The translations under genes were made by a program, and so were the position numbers. The notes beneath the pieces were generated by a model, which saw only the letters and a program-made list of their open reading frames with translations, ran no database searches and was not told where the DNA came from. DNA of 64,000 nt from Eggerthellaceae bacterium (lineage in GTDB: Bacteria; Actinomycetota; Coriobacteriia; Coriobacteriales; Eggerthellaceae), in the NCBI GenBank assembly GCA_022644775.1, contig JALCHN010000001.1, positions 62,001-126,000 on the forward strand, in the 5' to 3' direction. This document shows, piece by piece, positions 17,269-24,607 of this stretch. Numbering within the stretch: the first letter of the stretch is position 1; every line of letters starts with the position of its first letter.

Positions 17269-17829
17269 CTAGACGCGCTTGATGAAGCGGCCGTCACGGG
17301 TGTCGATCTGCAGGACGTCGCCCACGTTGATGTACATGGGGATGTTCACCACGGCGCCGGTTTCGAGCGTCGCGGGCTTGGTGCCGCCCTGGACGGTATC
17401 GCCCTTGAAGCCCGGGTCGGTGTCGGTGACTTCGAGCTCGACGAACATCTGCGGGGTGATGCTGATCAGTTCTTCGCCGGCGTACTGGAGCGTGACCTCG
17501 TCGTTTTCCTTGAGCCACTTGGCGGTGTCGGCCACCACGTCGGCCGGAATCGACATCTGCTCGTAGGAGTTAGGGTCCATGAAGTAGAAGTCTTCCCCAT
17601 CGTTGTAGAGATAGGTCATCTTGCGCTCTTCGAGACGGACCGTGTCGAATTTGGTGCCGCTGTTGAACGTGTACTCGACCACGCGACCGCTGCGGACGTC
17701 GCGCAGCTTGGTGCGGACGAAGGCGCCGCCCTTGCCCGGCTTCACATGCTGGAACTCGTTGATGGTCCACAGCTTGTTGTTGTAAACGATGCACATGCCG
17801 TTCTTGAAATCGGCGGTCGAAATTGCCAT
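17269..17829 (-). CDS. efp: Translation elongation factor P
   Basis: The 186-residue protein has the three beta-barrel domains of EF-P. The first is a KOW-like domain with the loop PGKGGAFVRTKL, whose lysine contacts the P-site tRNA. The later domains include the signature segment starting DPGFKGDTVQGGTKPATLETG. EF-P relieves stalling at polyproline. The ATG at 17829 has AGGAGG four bases upstream; an upstream in-frame Met would run through that ribosome site. It follows the M24 peptidase by 30 bases, a pairing (pepQ-efp) common in Gram-positives. No lysine-modifying enzyme gene is seen here. Confidence 0.97.
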   Translation of the reverse strand: MAISTADFKNGMCIVYNNKLWTINEFQHVKPGKGGAFVRTKLRDVRSGRVVEYTFNSGTKFDTVRLEERKMTYLYNDGEDFYFMDPNSYEQMSIPADVVADTAKWLKENDEVTLQYAGEELISITPQMFVELEVTDTDPGFKGDTVQGGTKPATLETGAVVNIPMYINVGDVLQIDTRDGRFIKRV

Positions 17830-17859
17830 TGATCCTCCTGGTGAAATTAACAAACGGTT

Positions 17860-18978
17860 TTACAGTATAACCATATCGTGCGTAGACCTGGTGAAGACGT
17901 CGTAGCCCGTTTCGGTGATTACGCCGAAATCTTCCAGCCGCATGCCGAATTCGCCGTCGAAGTAGACGCCCGGCTCGACCGTGACCACGTTTCCCGGCAC
18001 GAGCGGCTCTTTGTTGCGCGGGGCGAGCACGGGCGATTCGTGGATGTCGATGCCCACGCCGTGGCCGAGGGCATGGCCCATCTTGCCTGCGAACCCGTGG
18101 GCGGCGAGCACCTCTTCGGCGCGGTTGTGCGCGAAGGCTCCCGTGACGCCGGGAGCGAGCAGGGCCTCGACCGTTTCGTTGGCCTCGCGCACGGCGGCGT
18201 AGGCGTCGCGCAGGCGGGCGCCGGGCTCGCCGATGAAGACGGTCCGCGTCATGTCGGAACAGTAACCCTGGGAACGGGCGCCGAAGTCCATGACCACGCA
18301 CTGGCCCGCCTCGAGACGGGCGGGGCCGGGAATCGCATGCGCCATGGCCGCATCGGGGCCGGTCGCCACGATCGAAGAGAAGGCCAGGCCCACCGATCCG
18401 TGGCGGTACATGAAGTCCTCGAGCTCCACCTGGACCTCGCGTTCGGTCATGCCAGGACGGATGAAGGCCGTGATGTGGGCGAAGGCGGCGTCGGTGATCG
18501 CCTGGGTCGCCCGCATCCGCTCGATTTCCATCGCGTCCTTCACGGCGCGCAGGCGGGGCACGAAGTCGGCGGTTTCCACGACGCGCGGGGCGATGCCCTC
18601 GTCTGCGAAGGCGGCCTCGAGGGCGCGGAACTCGCGCAGGGGCAAATCGTCTTCGATGCCCACGACGCCCGATGCGCCCGCCGCCTTCAGACGGCGTGCC
18701 GCCCACTTTGCGTGGGAGACGCGATCGTCCTCGACGTCGACGGGTCCGCCTGCAGCCGCCGTGCGGCAGGCGAGCGCATAGCGCGAATCGGTATGCAGGG
18801 CCGCCGCATCGGGCCCCACGAGCACGGCATGCGCCCGCTCGTCGTCGAACACGTCGTCGAAGGCCGTCATCCAGGCGATGCTCGACGTGCCGCGCACGTA
18901 GAGGGCGTCGATTCCCTGCTCGCTCATGGTCGTGCGCGTCCGCTCGAGGCGGCGCGCGCTATAGTCGCTGTTGTTCAT
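17860..18978 (-). CDS. M24 family Xaa-Pro aminopeptidase/dipeptidase
   Basis: The 372-residue protein has a creatinase-type N-terminal domain (residues 1-135) and a pita-bread metallopeptidase domain. The five metal ligands are in place: the two Asp of VMDFGARSQGYCSDMTRT, the His of GHALGHGVGIDIHE, and the Glu residues of VVTVEPGVYF and GMRLEDFGV. It should remove N-terminal residues preceding proline, in the cytoplasm. The ATG at 18978 follows GGAGCAAGGT, a shifted but usable ribosome site. It lies directly before efp, which fits the known linkage between proline-peptide metabolism and EF-P. PepP and PepQ specificity cannot be separated by sequence alone. Confidence 0.93.
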   Translation of the reverse strand: MNNSDYSARRLERTRTTMSEQGIDALYVRGTSSIAWMTAFDDVFDDERAHAVLVGPDAAALHTDSRYALACRTAAAGGPVDVEDDRVSHAKWAARRLKAAGASGVVGIEDDLPLREFRALEAAFADEGIAPRVVETADFVPRLRAVKDAMEIERMRATQAITDAAFAHITAFIRPGMTEREVQVELEDFMYRHGSVGLAFSSIVATGPDAAMAHAIPGPARLEAGQCVVMDFGARSQGYCSDMTRTVFIGEPGARLRDAYAAVREANETVEALLAPGVTGAFAHNRAEEVLAAHGFAGKMGHALGHGVGIDIHESPVLAPRNKEPLVPGNVVTVEPGVYFDGEFGMRLEDFGVITETGYDVFTRSTHDMVIL

Positions 18979-19051: not shown

Positions 19052-20131
19052 CTATTGCCGGGCCCGGGCCCAGGCGCGCACGTGCTCGCGCAGGACGCTT
19101 TCGTCCACGCGGTCGAGGCTCCACTCCCCCACGTCGCGCGGGAGCAGGAAGGCGGGCACGGCGCTCTCGCGCACGAGCTGCCCCGTGAGCTCGTCGGCGT
19201 CGGGCGCAACGGACACCGCCGGCAGGCCCAGATCGTCGAGCAGGGCGTCGAGCGCGTGGACCGCGTCGACCGAAAGCCCTTCGACCTCGACGCCCAGGCG
19301 GGCGGCGAACCGCATGCCTTCGGCGCGGAAGGCGGGCGGAATCGCGTCGAGCCCCTGGGCGCGGGCGAGCGCTTCGCCGAACTCTTCTCCGAAGGCGCCC
19401 GCGTCGAGCAGGCCCGGGGCGCTCGCGAAGGCGTCGGCTTCGGCCACCGCGCAGCGGGCGATCGCCTCGGAGGCGACCGCGTGGTCGCGCTCGGCGAGCG
19501 CGCGGGCATGGTCGCCCAGCCAGAAGAAGAAGTCGTCGGAATCCATGAAGGCCCAGGCCGCGATGTCGGCGAGGCCCTCTTGCCAGGACGCGTCGGAAGT
19601 CGAATCGAGGGCGCGCACGTCGGCGCACACGTACACCGGATCGCTATGGACCGAGAGCACGTCGCGCTCATCGCGCACGTCGACGAAGGACCGGGCGCCC
19701 ACGCAGCGGCGCACCATCGCGTGCACGGTCGTGGGCACGAGCACCACATCGAGCCCGCCTTCGTAGGCATGGGCCGCGAACCCCGCGATGTCGAGCACGT
19801 TGGCCCCGCCCACGGCCACCACGACCGCATCGGAAGCCATGCCCTTGGCCGCGAGCGCCTGCCATATCTCGAGCGCGCATTCGGCGTTCTTCGATTCCCG
19901 GCCCGACGGTAGGGTGATGTCGGTCACTTTCAGGCCCGCCTGCGAAAGCTGGGAGCGCGCCGCCGGCCCGTAGGCTTCGGCCACGCGGGCGTCGGTGATG
20001 AGGACGGCCCGCCGGGCGTCGGGCGCGCAGGCGACGCAGCGCGACCCCAGGGTATCGGCCGCCGTGTCGCCGATGCGCATGTCGTAGCTCGTACCCTCCG
20101 GCAGGTTCACCACTACTTTGATGTTTGACAT
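19052..20131 (-). CDS. AroB-like (3-dehydroquinate synthase family) protein with degenerate active site
   Basis: The 359-residue protein aligns along its whole length with 3-dehydroquinate synthase: TLPSGRESKN, DIAGFAAHAYEGGLDVVLVPTT and GLADIAAWAFMDSDDFFFWL are recognisable. Key positions have changed. The NAD loop GGG is GGA (about 108-110). The zinc-ligand segment G-L-A-E-V-I-K is GLADIAA (186-192). The region normally G-H-T-x-G-H-A is GEEFGEA (248-254), and the HGEA motif is FRAE (268-271). It is unlikely to bind zinc or catalyse the usual reaction. The ATG overlaps the aroK end by 18 bases, so it is co-translated with aroK. A structural or repurposed role is an inference. Confidence 0.8.
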   Translation of the reverse strand: MSNIKVVVNLPEGTSYDMRIGDTAADTLGSRCVACAPDARRAVLITDARVAEAYGPAARSQLSQAGLKVTDITLPSGRESKNAECALEIWQALAAKGMASDAVVVAVGGANVLDIAGFAAHAYEGGLDVVLVPTTVHAMVRRCVGARSFVDVRDERDVLSVHSDPVYVCADVRALDSTSDASWQEGLADIAAWAFMDSDDFFFWLGDHARALAERDHAVASEAIARCAVAEADAFASAPGLLDAGAFGEEFGEALARAQGLDAIPPAFRAEGMRFAARLGVEVEGLSVDAVHALDALLDDLGLPAVSVAPDADELTGQLVRESAVPAFLLPRDVGEWSLDRVDESVLREHVRAWARARQ

Positions 20132-20664
20132 AGCACACCCCGTTTCAGAAGAATGCAGCGGATATCCCACGCAAGCTTGCCCACCGAAGCGCCCTTGGTG
20201 TCGACGGTCACGTCGGCGAGCTGCTCGTAGTAGGGCAGGCGCACGCTCGAGGCGGCGCGGAAGGAATCCATCGATTCAAGGTAGGGCCGCGTGGAATGGT
20301 CGCTGATGCGGGAGGCGCTCTCTTCGGGCGTGACCTTCAAATAGACCGCGAACCCGCGCTTGCGGATGATCTCGCGGCTGCGGGCGCCCATGACGATCCC
20401 GCCGCCGCAGGAGATGAGCAGCGGGTCACCTTCTACGAGCTCTTCGAGCTGGCAGGCTTCGAGTTCGCGGAAGCGCTCTTCCCCGCACTGGAGGAAGAGC
20501 TCTTTGGCCCGCATGTCGAAGGCGCGCTCGAGGCAGCGGTCGACGTCGACCGAAGCGAGCCCGCACATGCGCGCGAGCCGGCGCGTGACGGTGGTCTTGC
20601 CCGCCCCCATGAACCCAATGAAGAAGACTGGGCGCTTCAGCTGGTAGGTTTTCTTCGACCCCAC
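20113..20664 (-). CDS. aroK: Shikimate kinase
   Basis: The 183-residue protein has the P-loop GFMGAGKTTVTRRLA, the substrate Asp in VDVDRCLE, the GEERFRELE motif and the CGGGIV loop, followed by the lid region STRPYLES. All expected active-site residues are present, unlike in its AroB-like neighbour. It phosphorylates shikimate at the 3-OH. The start is a GTG at 20664 with GGGGGAG four bases upstream, just 13 bases after the aroC stop. Longer frames would overlap aroC. It is part of the aroC-aroK-aroB-like cluster. Confidence 0.93.
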   Translation of the reverse strand: MGSKKTYQLKRPVFFIGFMGAGKTTVTRRLARMCGLASVDVDRCLERAFDMRAKELFLQCGEERFRELEACQLEELVEGDPLLISCGGGIVMGARSREIIRKRGFAVYLKVTPEESASRISDHSTRPYLESMDSFRAASSVRLPYYEQLADVTVDTKGASVGKLAWDIRCILLKRGVLCQTSK

Positions 20665-20677
20665 GTCGCTCCCCCGC

Positions 20678-21844
20678 TTACTTAGAGAGCGTCTTGATGC
20701 GGTCGAGGTAGTTGTGCATGTTCGCCTTGATGTCGTCCATGTTGTCACAGCCGAACTTCGAAAGGTAGGCGTTGGCGAGCACCATGGCCACCTCGGCTTC
20801 GGCCACGACGGCGGCGGCGGGCACCGCGCACACGTCGCTGCGCTCCTTGGAGGCCTTCACGACTTCCATCGTGTCCATGTTGACCGTGTTGAGCGGGGTG
20901 CGCAGGGTGGGAATGGGCTTCATGCCCACCGTGAGGATGAGCGGCAGGCCCGTGGTCATGCCGCCCTCCAGCCCGCCCGCGTTGTTGGACGCGCGCGAGA
21001 AACCGGTTTCGGGCGATTGGATGATCGGGTCGTGCACCTGGGAGCCGGGACGGCGCGTGGCTTCGAAGCCCAGGCCGAACTCGAGCCCCTTCTGGGCAGG
21101 AATGGAGAAGATCGCAGCGGCCAGCTGGCTCGTGAGGCGGTGGGGACCGGCGTCGAAATCGCCCAGGCCCGGGATGAGGCCGGTGACCACGACGCGGTAT
21201 ATGCCGCCCAGGCTCTCGCCCTGGACCTTGGCCACGTCGATCATCTTCTTCATGCGGTCGGACGCTTCGGGGTCGGGGCAGCGCACTTCGCTCGTTTCGA
21301 TCTGACCGGTGGTGTAGCGGGTCGCCTGGGCAGGGTCGTCGTCCATCGCGGCCGACCCGATGCGGACGACATAGCTGTGCACGTCGACGCCGAGCGCCGC
21401 CAGGAAATCCTTGGCGATGCCGCCGGCGGCCACGCGGGCGGCCGTTTCGCGGGCGCTCGCGCGTTCGAGGACGTTGCGGCAGTCGTCGGTGTTGTTCTTC
21501 AGGGCGCCCACCAGATCGGCGTGACCCGGACGCGGGGTGACCTCGCGGCGCATCCGTTCGGGACGGTCGCCGAACTGGGCCATGATTTTGGTCCAGTGGG
21601 CCCAGTCGCGGTTGATCACCTGCAGGCAGATCGGCGTGCCGAGGGTTTTGCCGAAGCGAATGCCCGACTGGACGACCACCTGGTCGGATTCGATCTTCTG
21701 GCGACCGCCGCGGCCGTAGCCCGACTGGCGTCGCTTGAGGTCGGCGTTGATCTGCTCGATGGAGATGGGGAGGCCGGCGGGCACCTCGCTGACGATGGCG
21801 GTGAGGGCGGGACCGTGGCTTTCCCCAGCTGTTACGTAGCGCAT
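20678..21844 (-). CDS. aroC: Chorismate synthase
   Basis: At 388 residues it is full length. It opens with MRYVTAGESHGPALTAIV and has RRQSGYGRGGRQKIESD, the FMN-site segment RASNNAGGLEGGMTTG, and the closing SDVCAVPAAAVVAEAEVAMVLA. It converts EPSP to chorismate with reduced FMN. All signature histidine and arginine residues are in place, so the last pathway step looks functional. A 134-base gap separates it from the aroE-like gene upstream, so it may have its own promoter, although no clear one is seen. The following aroK starts 13 bases after its stop. Confidence 0.96.
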   Translation of the reverse strand: MRYVTAGESHGPALTAIVSEVPAGLPISIEQINADLKRRQSGYGRGGRQKIESDQVVVQSGIRFGKTLGTPICLQVINRDWAHWTKIMAQFGDRPERMRREVTPRPGHADLVGALKNNTDDCRNVLERASARETAARVAAGGIAKDFLAALGVDVHSYVVRIGSAAMDDDPAQATRYTTGQIETSEVRCPDPEASDRMKKMIDVAKVQGESLGGIYRVVVTGLIPGLGDFDAGPHRLTSQLAAAIFSIPAQKGLEFGLGFEATRRPGSQVHDPIIQSPETGFSRASNNAGGLEGGMTTGLPLILTVGMKPIPTLRTPLNTVNMDTMEVVKASKERSDVCAVPAAAVVAEAEVAMVLANAYLSKFGCDNMDDIKANMHNYLDRIKTLSK

Positions 21845-21978
21845 GCGGCAACTCGTTTCTTCTCGCGTTTTACTGCGATTCTACCAAAGGCAGGCATGCC
21901 TTACGTGCCGTCCGCATACATTTAGCCAAAGCGCAAACAAGAAGCCGCCGAAGGGCTGAGCTTCGCCGTCGATGCGCC

Positions 21979-22839
21979 CTACCAGACCTGGGCGAAGGCC
22001 TCTTCCAGGCACCCGTAGAGGTCGTTCCAGCTAGGCAGGCCGTCGACGGAGACCAGGCTCACATGGGCCAGCGTGGCGCAGCAGGCCTGCGAGGCCGTTG
22101 CGCGCACGACGCTGCCGCTCGCCATTTTGGCGTTGGGCGCGCCCAGTTCGAGCACCTTGCAGGCAGGCGCGAACATATCGTGGGGCATGGGGGCCCCGTA
22201 GGGGTGCAGGACGAAATCGGCCCGGCCGAGCGCCGCCTTCGACGTGACCGACGATGCGAAGAGGAAGTCGGTGTCCTCGTAGGCTTCCCGCTCGCTCTTG
22301 GGGAAGGGGTCGTGCGAGCCCAAGTCGATGCCGCCCATGGCTACCTGGCGCAAGCGGTCGAGGTAGTCGTCGAGGGCGACGCGGGCCCGGTCCTTCGACT
22401 CGTCGGCCAGGATGATGCGGCGCGCGCCCGAAAGGGCCGCCGCATGCACGCCCGAAAGCGAGATGGGCTCGCTGCCAAGCACCGCCACGCAGGAGCCGGC
22501 GAAGTCGACGCCGTCCCGGCCCATGCGCCAGGCAAAGCCGGCGCTCGCCAGGTCGCTGCCGAAAACGGTCCCCTTCAGGTTGATGAGGAAGTCGGAGCGC
22601 TGGGAGACGAGCGCCGAGGCCGCGTGGCGGTCGCAGAGCGAGAAGGCGTGACGGGCCCAGCCGGGAGCCACCACGGCTGAATCCCAGGCCCGGGCCGACA
22701 CCGCTCCCCCCACCGAGCCCATATCGTCGCCCGGATGCGGGGCGATCTTCATATCGAAGCCGTAGGTGCTGACGAGCACGCGCAGCATGCGGGCGATCAG
22801 GGTGTTTTCATCCGATCCGATAAGGGCGCAGGTGCTCAC
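21979..22839 (-). CDS. AroE-like (shikimate dehydrogenase family) protein, highly divergent
   Basis: This 286-residue protein begins with GTG in a four-base overlap with yqeG. The middle (LINLKGTVFGSDLASAGF then CVAVLGSEPISLSGVHAAALSGARRIILADE) aligns with the shikimate dehydrogenase linker and NADP fold, and VSVDGLPSW sits where family members have D-G-L-G-M-L. The N-terminal catalytic region lacks the S-x-S-P serines and the N-V-T-x-P-x-K lysine, and the nucleotide loop G-A-G-G-A is GSEPI. The position next to yqeG matches Gram-positive yqeG-yqeH-aroE clusters and supports the family call. Enzyme activity is doubtful. It could be a non-catalytic descendant. Confidence 0.6.
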   Translation of the reverse strand: MSTCALIGSDENTLIARMLRVLVSTYGFDMKIAPHPGDDMGSVGGAVSARAWDSAVVAPGWARHAFSLCDRHAASALVSQRSDFLINLKGTVFGSDLASAGFAWRMGRDGVDFAGSCVAVLGSEPISLSGVHAAALSGARRIILADESKDRARVALDDYLDRLRQVAMGGIDLGSHDPFPKSEREAYEDTDFLFASSVTSKAALGRADFVLHPYGAPMPHDMFAPACKVLELGAPNAKMASGSVVRATASQACCATLAHVSLVSVDGLPSWNDLYGCLEEAFAQVW

Positions 22840-23369
22840 GGGCGATCCTTCTCTCTGCAGGCGTTTGCGGGGTCTGGCCCCTCGGGCGTGCCGATGATTG
22901 CGCGCTCGAGGGCGCGCACGAAGCGGGTGTGCCCCGGCTCGCCTTCCTCGACAAGCGGCGCGACCAGATAGGAGCGCATGCCAGCCAGATGCGCCCCGAG
23001 GACGTCGGTGCTCGGCTGGTCGCCCACGACTACCGTGTCGGCCCGCGTGCCGCCGATCTTCCGACTCGCCACCGTGAAGCCCACCGGCAGGGGCTTCATC
23101 GCCTTGGCGACCACCGGCAGGCCCAAGGCCTCGCCGGTGGCAAACGGCGTGCGATGCCAGTTGTTGGACAAAAGGCAGAGCCGGATGCCGGCCCGTTTCG
23201 CGTCGCCGAGCCATTTCATCACGTCGAGGGGGACGCTGTGGGTCGCCCGCGACAGAATCGTGTTGTCCATGTCGAGCAGGACATGGGTGTAGCCGCGGGC
23301 GAGCAGGTCGCTTTCAAGCGAGATCGCCGACACGCGGGAAAAGTAGTTGTCAGGTTCGAGCAGGGACAC
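22836..23369 (-). CDS. yqeG: YqeG family HAD-IIIA phosphatase
   Basis: The 177-residue protein has the HAD motif I DMDNTIL near residue 33, motif II LLSNNWH, the lysine region AKAMKPLP and motif III VVGDQPSTDVLGA. YqeG relatives are phosphatases of the phosphatidylglycerophosphate or nucleotide type with poorly defined substrates. The start is GTG, overlapping the mltG stop (TAGTG). It ends inside the aroE-like start (GTGA overlap), so mltG, yqeG and the aroE-like gene are translationally coupled. Confidence 0.88.
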   Translation of the reverse strand: MSLLEPDNYFSRVSAISLESDLLARGYTHVLLDMDNTILSRATHSVPLDVMKWLGDAKRAGIRLCLLSNNWHRTPFATGEALGLPVVAKAMKPLPVGFTVASRKIGGTRADTVVVGDQPSTDVLGAHLAGMRSYLVAPLVEEGEPGHTRFVRALERAIIGTPEGPDPANACREKDRP

Positions 23370-24607
23370 TAGTTGTTCGACCCGTCCTGCTGCCCGTCGC
23401 TCCCATTGTCCGAACTCGCAGCATCGCCGGACGATTCCGACGACTTATCGGAGCTCGACGAACTCGACGAGGCGCTCTTGATGGCCTGCAGGTGCTCGTC
23501 GTAGGTCTTGCTGAAGTAGTAGTTGAGCGAGCCGTCGTCGTTCTTGGTGAAGTAGAAGTAGAGGTAGTCGGTCTGGTTGGGCTGGCAGGTCGCCTGCAGG
23601 GAGTCGAGCCCGGGCGAGCAGATCGGCCCGGCCGGCAGGCCCTTGTGCTGGTAGGTGTTGTAGGGGCTGTCGACCGACAGGTCATCGTGGGTCGGATCGT
23701 GCCCCACCACGTAGGCGATCGTCGCGTCGCTCTGCAGGGCGGTGTTGGCGGCCAAGCGGTTGTAGAAGACGCTCGCGACGTCGGCGCGCGTGTTGGCGTC
23801 ACTCTCGCGTTCGACGACCGACGCCAGCTTGAGCACGTCGTAGGCCGAAAGCCCCTGCGATTCCGCATAGGAGTAGTCGAGGCTCTGCACTTCCTGCTCG
23901 TACTGGTCGAGCATCATGCGAACGATCGAGTCGGCGGTCGCATCTTTGGGCAGGGTGTAGGTCTTGGGAAAGAGGAAGCCCTCGAGCGAGTTGTTGTAGG
24001 CGTCGGCCACGAAGGGATAGTCGTCGGCGTAGGCGCTCGCGTTGGCAGCGGCCGCCTTGAAGTCGTCGGCGGTCACCGCCCCGTCGGTGGCCTTTTCCAC
24101 CGCATCGGCCGTACGGGAGACCGTGTAGCCTTCGGGGACGACGAGGGTGTTGGCGGAAGGCCCGGACACGAGCATGCTCACGATGTCGGCGGCGCTCGTG
24201 CCGCCTTCGATCTGGTAGTCGCCGGGCTTGAGCTGGGAGGCGGCGTCGGAGGACTTGACCGCGTCGGTAAACTCGGAGGCGTTCGCAATCAGCTTGGCGT
24301 CGACGAGGGCCTGCCCGATCTGCTGGGCGCTCGCGCCGTCGGGCACGGTGACCTCGACCGTGGTGCCCGGCTGGACCAGATCGGTCGACGAGCAGCCCCG
24401 GCTACAGGAGGGCACGGCGATGAGCAGGACGATCGCCATGACGACCGCGATGACGATCGCGATCAGCGTGGGGCCCTGCGGCACTTTCGACCGCGGGTTG
24501 ATGTATGAGGTGTCGTAGGTGCGGAACTCGCGGCTCCCGCGCGCGTGGGCAGACCGGGCCGCATGGGTCGAATGCTTGGAATAGGTAACCTGGCGTCGTC
24601 TTACCAT
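23369..24607 (-). CDS. mltG: Endolytic murein transglycosylase MltG
   Basis: The 412-residue protein has a basic cytoplasmic N-terminus, one membrane segment at about residues 48-66, then a LysM-like and YceG domain. The catalytic Glu lies in ASVVERESDANTRADVASVFYNRL, and LQSDATIAYVVGHD, YNTYQHKGLPAGPICSPG follow as in the family. It cuts nascent peptidoglycan strands outside the membrane and sets their length. The final 35 residues are a low-complexity Ser/Asp tail, probably disordered, that is not part of the family. It sits between ruvX and yqeG, a common Gram-positive order. Confidence 0.93.
   Translation of the reverse strand: MVRRRQVTYSKHSTHAARSAHARGSREFRTYDTSYINPRSKVPQGPTLIAIVIAVVMAIVLLIAVPSCSRGCSSTDLVQPGTTVEVTVPDGASAQQIGQALVDAKLIANASEFTDAVKSSDAASQLKPGDYQIEGGTSAADIVSMLVSGPSANTLVVPEGYTVSRTADAVEKATDGAVTADDFKAAAANASAYADDYPFVADAYNNSLEGFLFPKTYTLPKDATADSIVRMMLDQYEQEVQSLDYSYAESQGLSAYDVLKLASVVERESDANTRADVASVFYNRLAANTALQSDATIAYVVGHDPTHDDLSVDSPYNTYQHKGLPAGPICSPGLDSLQATCQPNQTDYLYFYFTKNDDGSLNYYFSKTYDEHLQAIKSASSSSSSSDKSSESSGDAASSDNGSDGQQDGSNN

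Follow-up and report, generated by a model that had tools for sequence, protein, structure and literature searches.

Probable pseudoenzymes derived from AroB and AroE in a shikimate gene cluster of the Eggerthellaceae

The stretch of DNA analyzed here, called the window, covers 64,000 nucleotides from the 1.96 Mb genome of an Eggerthellaceae bacterium, a gut actinobacterium. Its minus strand carries a shikimate cluster in the order yceG-yqeG-aroE-aroC-aroK-aroB-pepQ-efp, for which the coordinates and reading frames given in the initial annotation proved correct. The genes, and the codons referred to below, are as follows (omega denotes dN/dS):

23369..24607, minus strand: YceG family protein, a conserved upstream neighbour
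22836..23369, minus strand: YqeG-family HAD phosphatase, a conserved upstream neighbour
21979..22839, minus strand: AroE-like protein, probable pseudoenzyme, syntenic with the canonical cluster AroE of relatives; catalytic Lys and Asp lost; omega 0.235; predicted AroE fold, TM ~0.7
20678..21844, minus strand: AroC, canonical chorismate synthase, motifs intact; the sole copy found in the genome
20113..20748, minus strand: AroK, canonical shikimate kinase, motifs intact
19052..20170, minus strand: AroB-like protein, probable pseudoenzyme, predicted DHQ-synthase fold; catalytic residues all lost; omega 0.21
20075..20077, minus strand: Arg32 codon of the AroB-like protein, a class-specific signature residue (20/20 dead AroBs)
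19757-19759, minus strand: codon for residue 138 of the AroB-like frame, where Gly replaces the universal Arg of YMRG
19310..19312, minus strand: Arg287 codon of the AroB-like protein, a class-specific signature residue (16/16 full-length dead AroBs)
17860..18930, minus strand: PepQ-like M24 peptidase, a conserved downstream neighbour
17269..17853, minus strand: elongation factor P (efp), a conserved downstream neighbour

The AroE-like frame begins with GTG and overlaps yqeG by 4 bases. The AroB-like frame opens at a GTG at 20170, the conserved start of the protein being probably the ATG at 20131 (MSNIKVVVN), and aroK and aroB overlap by a few codons. AroC and AroK, described at the outset as keeping all their motifs, are indeed canonical by profile scores and motif check.

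The AroB-like protein scores 113.5 bits against TIGR01357, the AroB equivalog model, for which the cut-off is 305. Its zinc ligands are gone, with D202 at the position of the Glu and E262 and a deletion at 278 at those of the two His; GEEFGEA replaces GHTLGHA, FRAE replaces HGxAVAE, and the second His of GHTxGH is E266. The catalytic and substrate Lys positions are R160, R169, A205 and E244, that of the catalytic Asp is R154, those of the Asn are D170 and A259, and DKK is missing. The NAD-loop GGG reads GGA, and both this change and the loss of the zinc ligands, as first described, are borne out by the motif alignment. The Arg of YMRG is G138, and Gly stands there in 14/16 full-length AroBs, from several lineages, that have lost their catalytic residues (hereafter dead AroBs). 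The AlphaFold model (mean pLDDT 93.2) nevertheless retains the DHQ-synthase fold, with a Foldseek TM of 0.91 to 6lk2.

No Pfam family matches the AroE-like protein, and a PDB sequence search with it gave nothing meaningful. VVAPGWARHA stands in place of NITTPYKPLA, which removes the catalytic Lys, SDLASAG in place of YNTDGQG, which removes the NTD Asp, and the nucleotide loop reads GSEPIS. The initial annotation had noted the loss of the catalytic Lys region, to which the Asp can be added, but the absence of GAGGA that it also counted as a loss is a family trait, as cluster AroEs of relatives with intact motifs carry GTGPT. The predicted model, although of lower confidence (mean pLDDT 78.7), has the AroE fold, and its best PDB matches are shikimate and quinate dehydrogenases with TM 0.60-0.72.

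The steps of the pathway were looked up one at a time across the contigs of the genome, and the true AroB, AroE, AroD and AroA were all found. A canonical AroB lies on contig C15 (331.6 bits, above the 305 that TIGR01357 requires) with DAHP synthase (DAHPS) adjacent; AroD adjoins an AroE with intact motifs on contig C53; a second AroE with catalytic motifs lies on contig C13; and AroA is on contig C4. Both of these AroEs have their catalytic motifs, though with scores of 196 and 199 they fall marginally short of the 200.2 required by TIGR00507. The genome has two EPSP_synthase matches, one of them MurA, and its dehydroquinase is of type I, the genome search having found none of type II. Judged by its genes, the shikimate pathway is complete, with canonical DAHPS, AroB, AroD, AroE, AroA, AroK and AroC all encoded. 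Beside the aroB/DAHPS pair on C15 lie large repetitive surface-protein-like genes with sortase-like tails (L003 14158-19996).

The gene order of the window recurs across Eggerthellaceae, with a canonical AroB at the same place in most genera and a canonical AroE in many, and orthologues of predicted active type with all their motifs thus occupy the same locus in relatives. On gene order, the yceG-yqeG-aroE-aroC-aroK-aroB-pepQ-efp cluster is ancestral. In what follows the efp-linked AroB is called type 1, and AroB located elsewhere, as on C15, type 2. The sister species G001, the only other genome of genus g1 compared with the window genome (G000), shows the same losses at 83% identity for the AroB-like and 78% for the AroE-like protein; with these shared losses, and with intact orthologues at the locus in most relatives, the pattern is far from chance.

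Dead type-1 AroBs were found in g1 (G000, G001), G009, g24 (G024, G063), G039, g35 (G071, G093 and G035, the last counted by its profile match) and g43 (G043, G095). The g35 protein is shortened to ~250 residues and that of g43 to ~245, both comprising the N-terminal two thirds only, with the C-terminal metal domain gone. Placed on a species tree of YceG, YqeG, PepQ and EfP, these imply at least five changes within Eggerthellaceae, an approximate count of independent losses, as this is a quick tree with some long branches; the g1 and G009 losses may be a single event. A second, canonical AroB is present in G000, G001, G009, G024, G039 and G093. Searches of G063 (99% complete) and G043 (96%) found no other DHQ_synthase match, no DAHPS (PF00793) and no type I dehydroquinase, nor in G043 a chorismate synthase, and these gene contents suggest aromatic auxotrophy in both. 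No relative was found with the same changes in an active AroB: most relatives that carry the changes either encode another, canonical AroB or are missing further upstream steps, except for the incomplete MAGs G071 and G035 (84-85% complete), and in G071, G035 and G095, which are 81-85% complete, a missing second AroB is weak evidence.

Two further families of the order, f2 and f3, which we take to be Atopobiaceae and Coriobacteriaceae, also have dead AroBs. In all ten clusters inspected there the gene order is yceG, yqeG, aroK, a dead aroB of full length, then pepQ, with AroK canonical; they were chosen from genomes with a second, weak PF01761 match (G237 having the weak one only) and do not give a family-wide frequency. 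That these weak matches might be glycerol dehydrogenases was considered and rejected, as the proteins at their loci derive from AroB and lie within the cluster, apart from one (L284) located outside any such cluster. Counter-evidence to retention comes from genus g47 and from g8, in which aroB has been cleanly deleted from the locus. In G148 an AroB is split over two frames (L282 6899-8495), by a frameshift or an assembly error, and the AroC of Gordonibacter pamelaeae 7-10-1-b is broken over several frames (L213 6626-8278), probably by sequencing errors.

Selection was gauged by Nei-Gojobori estimates of omega, for which dS is near saturation in distant pairs. The G000-G001 comparison gives an omega of 0.21 [0.15-0.29] for the AroB-like and 0.235 [0.16-0.35] for the AroE-like gene, compared with 0.185 for PepQ and 0.196 for the active AroB; the two halves of each gene behave alike and there are no indels. 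A neutral simulation at the same synonymous divergence gave 42% identity and 5.6 stops, against the 83% and none observed for the AroB-like gene. The shortened g43 AroB has an omega of 0.068 [0.039-0.105], lower than that of PepQ in the same pair. In f3, two pairs give 0.18 and 0.35 for the dead AroB, where their active type-2 AroB has 0.19 and 0.30. Dead AroBs of f2 have 0.18, and the least constrained are those of g24, with 0.45 from a divergent pair. Overall the dead proteins, at 0.07-0.45, are constrained much like active AroB. Purifying selection therefore maintains both the AroB-like and the AroE-like gene, and omega is well below 1 in independent lineages, strongly supporting the initial view that these are not decaying pseudogenes.

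To see what is kept, we took positions with 95% conservation or more among 36 active type-1 AroBs and computed their lineage-weighted retention in dead AroBs. Class-specific columns are retained at 0.56, compared with 0.24 for universal non-Gly/Pro columns (p = 1.3e-5). Arg32 is present in 36/36 active type-1 and 20/20 dead AroBs, the four shortened ones included, as opposed to 2% of 41 AroBs of other phyla and 0/15 of type 2; Arg287 is present in 36/36 active type-1 and 16/16 full-length dead AroBs, as opposed to 0% of the 41 and 7% of type 2. These two residues and the class-specific retention suggest a non-catalytic function that predates the loss of catalysis, though the class-specific residues may be structural. 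At the former metal and substrate columns the dead lineages mostly differ from each other, with no conserved new residue set. The NAD-site Asp and a PTT or PTS motif are still present in g1, g24 and g43, and dead AroB may, given such surviving NAD-contact residues in some copies, bind or sense NAD.

Other enzymes of the cluster have met a similar end in relatives. AroC at the ancestral locus of g47 is full length and divergent, with broken motifs (RPGHAD and ERASARETAA lost) and omega 0.15-0.29 (L134 8002-9183; L135 8722-9852; L136 2230-3360; L137 2597-3823), and a full-length AroC with broken motifs lies at the ancestral locus of G039 (L060 7117-8256). Genomes with such an AroC have a second, canonical one elsewhere. 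The dead AroC of G108 (L135) still passes TIGR00033, with 213.9 bits against a cut-off of 212.2. In the g47 AroK at the locus, GExxLRR replaces GExxFR and CGEG replaces CGGG (L134 7470-8015; L135 8187-8972; L136 3140-3901; L137 2064-3575), changes that suggest a loss of shikimate binding. A degenerate cluster AroE lies beside an intact AroB in G019 (L041 5244-6371) and, upstream of aroC, in G105 (L119), so AroE and AroB can die separately.

We suggest that the AroB-like and AroE-like proteins are most plausibly pseudoenzymes kept by selection for a non-catalytic role, a reading behind which fewer lineages stand for the AroE-like than for the AroB-like protein. They would descend vertically from the AroB and AroE of the ancestral cluster linked to efp, with catalysis taken over by the AroB beside DAHP synthase (C15), the AroE beside AroD (C53) and the AroE on C13. 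The old copies would then have lost all catalytic residues, while purifying selection kept folded, non-catalytic proteins. The efp-linked AroB would have had its second, non-catalytic function before catalysis was lost, and this function could, with less confidence, be the binding of a partner. "Scaffold or regulator", as first proposed, stays the leading class of explanation.

AroK is a tentative first candidate partner of dead AroB: its gene overlaps aroB, f2 and f3 keep the two together, and AroK-AroB fusions are known. Fusions of AroK/AroL with AroB occur in other bacteria (PMC7311316) and are covered by the NCBIfam model PRK14021. AroK as an obligatory partner was rejected: at the level of the cluster, G009 and g43 keep a dead AroB with no AroK beside it, and since G043 also lacks AroC, AroD, DAHPS and any other AroB, AroK cannot be the sole partner. 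More broadly, we lean slightly toward seeing the efp-linked AroB of Coriobacteriia as a two-function protein whose non-catalytic role is marked by Arg32 and Arg287, and which was kept dead after catalysis was displaced or the pathway lost, a course that several lineages took independently and that is widespread in two sister families.

Among other readings of the dead AroB, regulation of the active enzyme deserves mention. DHQ synthase is a homodimer and most genomes with a dead AroB also encode an active one elsewhere, with which the dead protein could heterodimerize and so activate or tune it. A precedent is the trypanosome prozyme that switches on AdoMetDC (PMC5201418). We nonetheless think this unlikely, as G043 (96% complete) and G063 (99%) keep a dead AroB with no other DHQ_synthase match, PF00793 DAHPS or type I AroD found, and the dead AroB of g1 would have to pair with an active AroB of a distant type, at 31-33% identity. 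It is likewise rather improbable that the efp-linked AroB moonlights as a binder of RNA or some other macromolecule, with Arg32 and Arg287 on the binding surface. RNase treatment shifts AroB of Synechocystis and its Nostoc homologue in gradient proteomics (PMC12475003), and both Arg are invariant and clade-specific, but for this clade the basis is analogy and the surface position of the two residues is putative.

Enzymes with new chemistry were among the initial proposals. The dead AroB would then be a sugar-phosphate-cyclase or iron-ADH superfamily protein whose reaction has changed, in line with the kept DHQS fold and the NAD-site Asp and PTT or PTS motif of g1, g24 and g43. This is distinctly improbable, as the metal ligands, substrate lysines and Asp are all gone with no conserved replacement set, and g43 and g35 keep the N-terminal two thirds only, even though the strongest constraint is seen in the g43 copy. 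The dead genes lie upstream of pepQ-efp, and could be decaying pseudogenes whose frames survive solely because a stop would have polar effects on these genes, and g47 and g8 did remove aroB cleanly; polarity, however, bars stops and not missense changes, and this very improbable reading is already contradicted by omega, whose confidence limits stay under 1 in each half of the window gene as well as across independent lineages. Hardly credible, finally, is a broken pathway with import of shikimate or other aromatics, as once considered, even though two cluster steps look dead and the relatives G043 and G063 lack upstream steps: with a canonical enzyme for every step in the window genome, shikimate uptake need not be invoked.

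Pseudoenzymes in general are already a known kind. In the open-licence literature, we found no description of AroB pseudoenzymes, of Eggerthella or Collinsella AroB, or of shikimate pseudogenes in Coriobacteriales, and as far as such searches go, it is new that an order repeatedly keeps a dead AroB at a single locus. Second functions of metabolic enzymes are seldom visible from sequence data alone; here the catalytic site of a core biosynthetic enzyme has been knocked out naturally several times over, which would set catalysis apart from a second function under selection and indicate candidate residues for it. Automated annotation may call the dead proteins DHQ synthase, or the dead AroC of g47 chorismate synthase, and so mislead metabolic models of gut bacteria.

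Compared with known systems, the AroB-like protein resembles AroB (TIGR01357, PF01761, PDB 6lk2) in fold, length, locus and ancestry, but is without the zinc ligands and the catalytic Lys/Asp/Asn/Arg set and falls far under the equivalog cut-off. The AroE-like protein likewise shares predicted fold, locus and ancestry with shikimate dehydrogenase (TIGR00507, PF08501, PDB 3o8q), but is without the catalytic Lys and Asp, the nucleotide loop and any Pfam match. As with the trypanosome AdoMetDC prozyme (PMC5201418), a catalytically dead paralogue exists beside an active enzyme, but the dead AroB persists even where no active AroB was found. In the fused AroK/AroL-AroB proteins (NCBIfam PRK14021, PRK13951; PMC7311316) the association of AroK and AroB is physical as well as genetic and both domains are annotated as active, whereas the AroB of the window is dead and separate, its gene overlapping aroK by a few codons.
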